A stretch of 64,000 nucleotides of DNA, from the NCBI GenBank assembly GCA_030145205.1, contig JAQYVZ010000001.1, forward strand, positions 124,001 to 188,000, read 5' to 3'. A model generated the notes under the pieces. The model was given only the letters and a program-made list of their open reading frames with translations, did not search any database and was not told where the DNA came from. Below, piece after piece: positions 6,841 through 9,117 of this stretch. The position numbers and the translations under genes were made by a program. Position 1 is the first letter of the stretch. Each line of letters starts with the position of its first letter. Source of the stretch: Desulfuromonadales bacterium (GTDB lineage: Bacteria > Desulfobacterota > Desulfuromonadia > Desulfuromonadales > BM103).

Positions 6841-7110
6841 ATGAAAAAACTGATCGTCATGTTAATGCTGATCGCATTCGCCGGTGTCGGTGTCGCTATT
6901 GCGGCGGACAATGTCGTGTACGAAAACAAGAAGGGCAATGTCACCTTCGACCACAAAACTCATAGCGAAACGCTGGAGTGCTCAAAATGCCACGAAGGGA
7001 CCCCGGCCAAGATCGCCATCGACAAGGCCTCTGCTCACAAGGACGCCTGTAAAACCTGCCATAAGGAGACGAGTGGCCCGACCAAATGCAACGACTGCCA
7101 TAAAAAATAG
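6841..7110 (+). CDS. triheme cytochrome c7, PpcA type
   Basis: An 89-residue precursor with a signal peptide (residues 1-21, ending at AIAA) and three CxxCH haem sites at 47-51, 70-74 and 83-87. Three further histidines (His38, His41, His66) are correctly placed as the distal ligands, so all three haems can be bis-histidine. This is the c7 pattern of PpcA, the periplasmic electron shuttle between inner and outer membrane in metal-reducing Desulfuromonadales. The mature length of about 68 residues fits (PpcA is about 70). A strong AGGAGG site precedes the ATG and an intrinsic terminator follows, so it is monocistronic. Confidence 0.93.
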   Translation: MKKLIVMLMLIAFAGVGVAIAADNVVYENKKGNVTFDHKTHSETLECSKCHEGTPAKIAIDKASAHKDACKTCHKETSGPTKCNDCHKK

Positions 7111-7130
7111 TCTCAAGCCCTCTGCGACAA

Positions 7131-7158
7131 AAAAGGCGCTGTTATCAGCGCCTTTTTT
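7131..7158 (+). terminator. intrinsic terminator of the cytochrome c7 gene
   Basis: A 10-base-pair stem AAAAGGCGCT / AGCGCCTTTT around GTTATC, with a T run at the 3' side, 20 bases after the stop codon. Confidence 0.92.
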
Positions 7159-7370
7159 CATGCTTTTTATTTATTTCGAAATCAGGTGACAAGCACAGAA
7201 CAAATACCCGGTACCCACAAAAAATAAATGGGGACACATCCCCTCACAGGACCTTAAAAAGAAAACGCCAGAAAACAACGTAAAACTGATTACTTACACA
7301 GGAACAGGCACAAAACTAATATTTGTAATTTTAGCTTGCACAGGCGGTATCTCTTTGTTAGACTTTTCAT
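7159..7370. other. intergenic stretch before the candidate sRNA
   Basis: No gene is seen. It contains the partly palindromic GGGGACACATCCCC near 7230, a motif type often found in dispersed repeats of related bacteria, and at its right end the promoter of the candidate small RNA. Confidence 0.5.
7336..7364 (+). promoter_or_regulatory. sigma-70-type promoter of candidate sRNA
   Basis: TTGCAC (7336-7341) and TAGACT (7359-7364) are separated by exactly 17 bases. Transcription would begin around 7371, immediately before the first stem of the candidate RNA. Confidence 0.55.
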
Positions 7371-7450
7371 AAGCTCTTCGTGATACCTGCAAACCGAAGA
7401 GTCTTTGGACCCCGCGTATCCCCCCCCTCCTTACGCGGGGTCTTTTTTAT
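7371..7450 (+). ncRNA. candidate small RNA with anti-Shine-Dalgarno terminator loop
   Basis: About 80 nucleotides with no open frame. A first hairpin pairs CTCTTCG (7374-7380) with CGAAGAG (7395-7401). A second has a perfect 11-base-pair stem (7408-7418 with 7432-7442) and six T residues after it, so it is an intrinsic terminator in plus orientation. Its 13-base loop is TCCCCCCCCTCCT, the complement of a ribosome-binding AGGAGG. Promoter, two hairpins and terminator with no gene inside suggest an independent trans-acting RNA. The C-rich loop resembles known riboregulators that block ribosome sites. No Rfam family was recognised by eye. Confidence 0.6.
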
Positions 7451-7461
7451 CTACGCTCAGC

Positions 7462-9117
7462 CTATTGATCGCGAAACGCTCGCAGCAGATGTGGCACAAG
7501 CTGCTTTTTGCGCGACAACACCCCTTTCAGCTCAAACAGGCCGGCCGTAATCTGTGGGTAGCCGATTGCGCTGACCAGATCTCCCTCGCCACACACCAAA
7601 AACTGACTGTTCTGTTCCACAATATCGCTAACCAGAAGCCCGGCCAGGTCAAGGTTGCGCGCCTGGCGCAGCGCTGAGAGACCTTCGGTCAGAACATCGA
7701 CCCGCTCCTGAAATTCCGCGTATGAAATCACCTCAACCTGGCTGACGCCAAACCGCCGCTCTCCGACGACGTATTCTTTGAAATCCGCCATCAGCAAATC
7801 CTCTGGCGTCGGGTATTCTGCCAAGGCGCTGCCAGACTTGAACATCTGCTGGCCGAACTCATGCGGGTCCAATCCGGCAATCGGTGCGAGCCAGTCCATT
7901 AGATCCCGGTCAACAACCGTTGTCGTCGGTGATTTCAGCAGGACCGTATCGGAGAGAAGTCCTGCAAGCATCAACCCGGCGATCCGGGGCTTCGGAGCAA
8001 CTCCGGCCTCACGGTACAGGGAGGCCACAACGGAACAGGTGCTGCCAAGTGGTTGATTAATGAACCGAATCGGCATCTCGGTATGGAAGTTACCGAGCCG
8101 GTGATGGTCGATGACTTCGAGGATCTCGACCTGGTCCGCACCCGGCACAGCCTGTGACAGCTCATTGTGGTCAACCAAAACCAGACGAATTGCCGATGAC
8201 TTAAGCAGATTGGTTTTTGTCGCCACACCAGCAACCCGACCTTCGTGATCGATGACGACGGCCCCTGGAGCCCCATCGTGAGTCAAAAGCCGGGCCAGAG
8301 AACTCAGCAGGTCATCTGGATTCACCTGTGGAAGCTCTTTGTCCGCCAAGTGGCGAACGGGTGTTGACATGCGTGTCAGCAGGGCGCTGGTCGCCGTATC
8401 AAAAGGACTCACCAGGACAGAAACTCCATTTTTAGCGGCAGCCTCCCGAACATCATCTGTGACCGGCAGTCCGCCAGTCACAACCAACAGGCGCACCCCC
8501 ATCTCAATGGCCGCTCTTTGAACTTTGACACGATCCCCGGTCAGCACTACGGCATTACGCGGGTTTGATTTGGAGAGGAGCTCGACAAAAGTCTGCGACG
8601 CCATGGCACCGACATACAGTTCAAGCAGGTCGACCCGCTCTGCTTCCACAAGATTGATCGCTTTGCCCTTCAGACAGGTCTGGATCGATCGGACCGATGT
8701 CAGTACCTGGCGTATCCGCCCCCCCTCTTCCGGCAGGAACACATGCTCCGGCAGGCGCTTCAGGACCAGGGCCCCTCCCGGTCGACCCTCCCGGTCGACC
8801 ACCGGCAGCATGCGGATATCATGTCGCCGCATCAATTGCACGGCGTCAGAGAGGGGCGCTTCCTCAAAGATTGTAATCGGGGTCTCGCCGACCACATCGC
8901 GCACCCGCGGATAAACATCAGCGAGTAATTCCGGCGGGTCCTGGCCCAGCGTTTCCAACACGTATTCGGTCTGGCGGTTCAGGGTACCAGCCCGTGCCGG
9001 GCTGACGTGGCTTTGCCCTTGAGCCCGACAGAGTTCGGCATAGGCAATGGCACTGCAGACCGAATCGGTGTCCGGATTTTTATGTCCAATCACATAGGTG
9101 ATCTTCCGCTTCATCAA
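7462..9117 (-). CDS. ppaC: manganese-dependent (family II) inorganic pyrophosphatase with CBS and DRTGG domains
   Basis: A 551-residue DHH-family enzyme that hydrolyses pyrophosphate. The first metal motif GHKNPDTDS is at residues 11-19; later VDHNE and the DHH motif (IDHHRLGNF) complete the active site, and a DHHA2 domain closes the protein. Between the first motif and DHH lies an inserted regulatory block of a CBS pair and a DRTGG domain. This is the nucleotide-regulated subtype, inhibited by AMP/ADP and activated by ATP or diadenosine polyphosphates in characterised members. It overlaps the DUF3108 gene by four bases and is the last gene of a three-gene run. Confidence 0.92.
   Translation of the reverse strand: MMKRKITYVIGHKNPDTDSVCSAIAYAELCRAQGQSHVSPARAGTLNRQTEYVLETLGQDPPELLADVYPRVRDVVGETPITIFEEAPLSDAVQLMRRHDIRMLPVVDREGRPGGALVLKRLPEHVFLPEEGGRIRQVLTSVRSIQTCLKGKAINLVEAERVDLLELYVGAMASQTFVELLSKSNPRNAVVLTGDRVKVQRAAIEMGVRLLVVTGGLPVTDDVREAAAKNGVSVLVSPFDTATSALLTRMSTPVRHLADKELPQVNPDDLLSSLARLLTHDGAPGAVVIDHEGRVAGVATKTNLLKSSAIRLVLVDHNELSQAVPGADQVEILEVIDHHRLGNFHTEMPIRFINQPLGSTCSVVASLYREAGVAPKPRIAGLMLAGLLSDTVLLKSPTTTVVDRDLMDWLAPIAGLDPHEFGQQMFKSGSALAEYPTPEDLLMADFKEYVVGERRFGVSQVEVISYAEFQERVDVLTEGLSALRQARNLDLAGLLVSDIVEQNSQFLVCGEGDLVSAIGYPQITAGLFELKGVLSRKKQLVPHLLRAFRDQ

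Follow-up and report, generated by a model that had tools for sequence, protein, structure and literature searches.

A conserved small RNA family of the order Desulfuromonadales with an anti-Shine-Dalgarno-like terminator loop, and radC as its candidate target

The alpha-r14/cuckoo RNAs of Alphaproteobacteria (NfeR1, CcsR1-4) have an ultraconserved unpaired anti-Shine-Dalgarno word and act on start sites; the word, CCUCCUCCC, is present in each of three hairpins, and the loci often adjoin DUF1127 genes (CIN1 loci) (PMC10746234, PMC10253847). The B11/6C RNA of Actinobacteria binds G tracts in leaders (PMC10470900). RepG of Helicobacter pylori pairs by its terminator loop with a G-rich mRNA leader, and its second stem-loop alone suffices (PMC8295292). 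LhrC of Listeria monocytogenes acts by covering a target's ribosome site (PMC4132741). Described here is a candidate small RNA with a C-rich terminator loop in a Desulfuromonadales bacterium (assembly GCA_030145205.1, contig JAQYVZ010000001.1). It is encoded in a stretch of 64,000 nucleotides (contig positions 124,001–188,000), termed the window, to which all unprefixed positions refer. Conservation, covariation and synteny speak strongly for a small RNA whose anti-Shine-Dalgarno-like loop is conserved. This part of a preliminary description, made from the window alone, stands; the targets and the broad action it suggested are not supported.

At E < 1e-19, a DNA search with the locus matched 20 of the 21 other genomes of the same taxonomic family, and the sole genome without a match is a 59% complete assembly. 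This conservation shows that the element is not a chance occurrence. The orthologues mostly adjoin a cytochrome c7 gene and/or a PPase gene. The promoter position is retained (mostly TTGTCA-17-TATATT or TATAGT), and the flanking DNA has diverged. An alignment of the 20 family RNAs displays both hairpins. Three pairs of stem 1 vary on one side only and there are no double changes, while in the terminator stem both sides have changed at three pairs. Between relatives, loop 1 and the C run differ by single-base indels, which argue against a peptide-coding role. Loop 1 (positions 7381–7394, + strand) keeps CCUGCAA in all 20 members and may be a second pairing seed.

A covariance model of the terminator hairpin (R1) and then a broader model (R2) were run on whole genomes. 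At E ≤ 1e-4, R2 finds C-loop terminators in 106 of the 123 sampled Desulfuromonadales genomes, with Geothermobacter hydrogeniphilus among the named carriers, and in 14 of 121 genomes elsewhere in the class. Beyond the order, the listed R2 matches are weak (7.8e-7 at best, versus 4e-13 inside), and the phylum-wide search outside the order yielded weak matches only, which resemble generic terminators. The stems of the model matches are alike only in a few G-C pairs (GAGCCCGGUGAC, GACCCCGAGCCU, GGCCCGGUGUCA, CCCCGGUCAC and others). Among 52 distinct hairpins, double changes are found at 11 of the 12 stem pairs, with 125 compensatory cells observed against 25 in shuffles, and CCUCC is retained in 51 of them although the stems change.

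R1 and R2 favour C loops; therefore loop-unbiased tests were made. A census not selected for loops took in 20 regions anchored on the helix-turn-helix (HTH) gene of the locus, plus the window (396 kb). It shows 59 strong intrinsic terminators, 21 of them with a loop 9 or more bases long. CCUCC is present in 16 of these 21 and GGAGG, the strand-reversed word, in none. The comparisons thus show a conserved predicted two-hairpin RNA with an invariant loop; conservation of loop and stems in related genomes, on which the preliminary description had staked the RNA beforehand, was found.

The RNA gene is situated in a gene-free gap that extends from the stop of a cytochrome c7 gene at 7110 to the end of a convergent gene at 7462. 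The c7 gene has its own terminator (7129–7158), and the gap is gene-free, so the RNA appears to be a separate unit. Neighbours are the cytochrome c7, HTH protein and DHH/DHHA2 PPase genes. The gap, the promoter with 17-base spacing, the initial 7-bp hairpin and the 11-bp terminator with a C8/TCCT loop were all read as first described (Table 1). The C8-UCCU loop contains CCUCCU, the complement of AGGAGG, and AGGAGG is present at the c7 gene, also as described. The predicted fold has an energy of −31.8 kcal/mol (z = −6.0), and 0 of 200 shuffles was equally good.

Table 1. The RNA gene and its parts (window positions).
Feature	Position	Strand	Basis and remarks
Candidate small RNA, about 78 nucleotides	7371–7448	+	5′ end inferred from promoter position
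−35 element TTGCAC	7336–7341	+	Read directly; relatives have TTGTCA/TTGCAT at the same position
−10 element TAGACT, 17-base spacer	7359–7364	+	Read directly; relatives have TATATT/TATAGT/TATAAA
Stem-loop 1, GCUCUUCG/CGAAGAGU, 14-nucleotide loop with conserved CCUGCAA	7373–7402	+	Fold and alignment; 7373–7380 with 7395–7402, 7 pairs and one G-U
Terminator hairpin, 11 bp	7408–7442	+	Fold; 7408–7418 with 7432–7442, 11 pairs, plus G7407-U7443; covariation at 11/12 pairs, 52 distinct hairpins
Loop UCCCCCCCCUCCU, proposed antisense seed	7419–7431	+	CCUCC kept in 51/52 hairpins; terminator census
T6 terminator tail, possible Hfq contact	7443–7448	+	Read directly; Hfq gene in same genome

No named family had been recognised from the sequence, and when the window and 20 related loci were compared with Rfam 15 at gathering level, no family was found at the RNA locus either. 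A sub-threshold STnc40 match proved to be the c7 terminator. The closest match by structure, the 6C model (RF01066), gave 27.2 bits, against a gathering value of 47, and no gathering-level match in the 20 related loci. Similarities to 6C/B11 are the two hairpins, the C-rich loop, a length of 70–80 nucleotides and the terminator; however, both 6C hairpins have C-rich loops, whereas here only the terminator loop does and stem 1 has UGAUACCUGCAAAC. With alpha-r14/cuckoo the RNA shares an anti-Shine-Dalgarno word that is kept while the stems diverge, and multiple copies. It differs in having two hairpins with one CCUCC seed, in the terminator loop, in belonging to another bacterial class, and in its neighbours (cytochrome c7, HTH protein and PPase in place of DUF1127). 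RepG is also a short two-hairpin RNA with a C/U-rich terminator loop, but it is from a different phylum and is likened by description; a possible counterpart here of its G-rich mRNA site would be the conserved GGAGGGG motif at radC. LhrC is multicopy with C-rich loops, including the terminator loop, but it is from a different phylum and has three UCCC sites per molecule, where the RNA of this locus (type A) has one CCUCC and a paralogous type C mostly two. The proposed mode of action resembles that of these four groups, but for none of them does the RNA display every testable defining feature. No description of it was found in the open literature searched, the coverage of which is incomplete. 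It belongs to an unrecorded family that extends across the Desulfuromonadales, new in itself but of a kind already represented by alpha-r14/cuckoo, RepG, 6C and LhrC.

Several copies of C-loop RNAs are found in many genomes, including tandem pairs. A type B RNA (GCCCCGUGAUNCCCCUCCUUCACGGGGC) lies in tandem about 120–210 bases downstream of type A in several other taxonomic families (loci L131, L132, L133, L138, L140, L142, L145 and L022), mostly with its own TTG...TAGAAT-like promoter. A type B hairpin pattern in which the loop was unconstrained except for its last two bases matched in 14 genomes, and every loop has CUCC immediately before the stem. The source genome has no type B copy. It has two further C-loop RNAs, each with an orthologue in a sister species. 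One (L360, G000:C51:66327-66380, − strand) has the loop UACCUCCCUCCCUCCCCCCCCU and the promoter TTGACA-17-TATATA. The sister-species copy has a near-identical stem and a 17-base loop of differing length, as if the loop had grown by repeat slippage. The other, type C (L359, G000:C273:17725-17766, − strand), has an extra ACCUCCU in its linker. Type C relatives are present in several family genomes (L273, L281, L282, L286, L287, L146 and L147), and most type C copies have a second ACCUCC in the linker. In the paralogue L283, CCUCCC is repeated within one loop. A c-di-GMP-I-GGC riboswitch (Rfam RF03167) is located near a paralogous C-loop RNA in another taxonomic family (L116, 1680–1766, + strand).

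The reading that we favour, and consider fairly probable, is that of a trans-acting small RNA that would be transcribed from a dedicated promoter. The terminator hairpin would expose a single-stranded C(5–9)UCC(U) loop, and this loop would base-pair with the G-rich ribosome sites (GGAGGGG) of a few mRNAs. Pairing would mask the ribosome site and block initiation, and mRNA decay would probably follow. Hfq, whose gene is present in 35 of the 40 genomes examined, including the source genome, may assist on the U tail.

The loop is perfectly complementary to GGAGGGG(GG), a motif of higher specificity than the general ribosome site. A list of the genes that have GGAGGGG directly ahead of ATG was drawn up for the source genome and two relatives; radC, comF and a transposase recur, and in the source genome dprA and comM display the motif as well (assigned by Pfam: DprA_N for dprA, ChlI for comM, DZR_2 for comF, UPF0758_N for radC). 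Across the order, GGAGGGG precedes the start of 29 of 49 radC orthologues, AAGGAGGGGGCAAUG being typical, against a background of 6 of 485 genes. The neighbouring downstream gene, for a minor type IV pilin (pilV-like), has it in 13 of 17 family genomes, as counted by eye. In the locus L421 (972–2184, − strand) minor type IV pilin genes (pilV-, pilW-like) come next after radC, and the radC and pilV sites are G-rich in most family genomes. In the f4 genomes without a C-loop RNA (G024, G044 and G055) radC has no GGAGGGG run, and most other genomes without a clear C-loop RNA (G033, G038, G047, G027 and G031) also lack it. Loop-duplex energies, the only ones used because cofolding cannot represent loop pairing, are −19.8 kcal/mol for radC, −20.1 for dprA, −19.2 for comM, −24.9 for comF and −10.7 for c7. 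From the conserved motif, pairing is predicted at radC and at the downstream minor pilin gene, and the RNA probably silences a small set of genes, of which radC is the best candidate.

Cytochrome c7, named as a target in the preliminary description, is not special: its AGGAGG is an ordinary ribosome site, and neither its start nor the HTH and PPase starts keep any match to the C run beyond that site. The strongest match in the window (start 39259) was rejected: its G8 run falls within T2SSF coding sequence and does not mark a start. Across the 22 family genomes, very long G runs (GGAGGGGGG before ATG) gave counts close to a reversed-pattern control and few recurrent genes.

Several observations weigh against the favoured reading. 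The source genome's own promoter matches the consensus at 7 of 12 positions and is weak by this measure; that of the relatives, at the same position, matches at 10 of 12. The RNA is present and the radC motif missing in several genomes (families f5, f6, f18, f19 and f20), and G035 and G042 have the motif without a clear RNA. The radC motif is associated with presence of the RNA in a two-by-two table (Fisher p = 0.004), but this value treats species as independent despite their shared ancestry. The many-genome motif test covered radC and its neighbour only. Finally, since GGAGGGG is simply a strong ribosome site too, the motif could be kept at radC for the sake of translation strength.

Among other explanations, the C-rich loop might capture a C-preferring RNA-binding protein or sequester Hfq, so that the RNA acts as a decoy by titration and not by mRNA pairing. 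Loop invariance, several copies per genome, and a stable hairpin with a U tail would also suit a protein ligand. This is nevertheless unlikely, because CCUCC is kept while the C run (3–9) and the loop length (9–22) vary, as expected of a pairing seed, and because the G-rich radC start motif is left unexplained. The broad effect on translation suggested in the preliminary description, in which the loop would compete for the AGGAGG sites of most mRNAs, appears rather improbable. CCUCCU can pair with any strong ribosome site, and 6 or more bases match at 12 of the 49 genes in the window, but such six-base matches are weak (c7, about −10.7 kcal/mol) and unconserved outside the ordinary ribosome site. 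The C run would then be superfluous; it points instead to the rarer GGAGGGG(G), found at about 1% of starts and kept at radC and the downstream pilin gene.

A role in cis is very unlikely. In the region 7230–7462 (− strand), the stop of the convergent PPase gene is 13 bases from the T tail of the RNA gene. No strong terminator precedes the RNA gene on the minus strand, and hence the 3′ end of the PPase transcript may overlap and pair with the RNA; the hairpin could accordingly be its terminator or 3′ antisense partner. However, no T tail follows the hairpin on the minus strand, and elsewhere the RNA occurs without an adjacent PPase gene, in tandem, or at unrelated loci. That the hairpin, a canonical intrinsic terminator, merely ends an upstream transcript and has its C-rich loop by drift is hardly credible, given the separate c7 terminator, the conserved promoter, stem 1 and loop, and the 16 of 21 long-looped terminators with CCUCC in the census.

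For a trans-acting RNA that pairs with G-rich ribosome sites, the candidate targets suggest a biological role. The genes radC, comF, dprA and comM are members of competence regulons in other bacteria. That the pilin gene, comF, dprA and comM share GGAGGGG suggests a DNA-uptake regulon. It is conceivable, though doubtful, that the order-wide family is a competence switch that keeps radC, minor type IV pilins, comF, dprA and comM silent by way of this shared motif.

In the open papers searched, no small-RNA regulator was found for the Desulfuromonadales, an order of metal- and sulfur-reducing bacteria. The putative family described here is present in most genomes of the order; a covariance model for it is at hand, its seed is conserved, and a testable candidate target is named. 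It may be one more instance in which the anti-Shine-Dalgarno loop solution arose, apparently independently.
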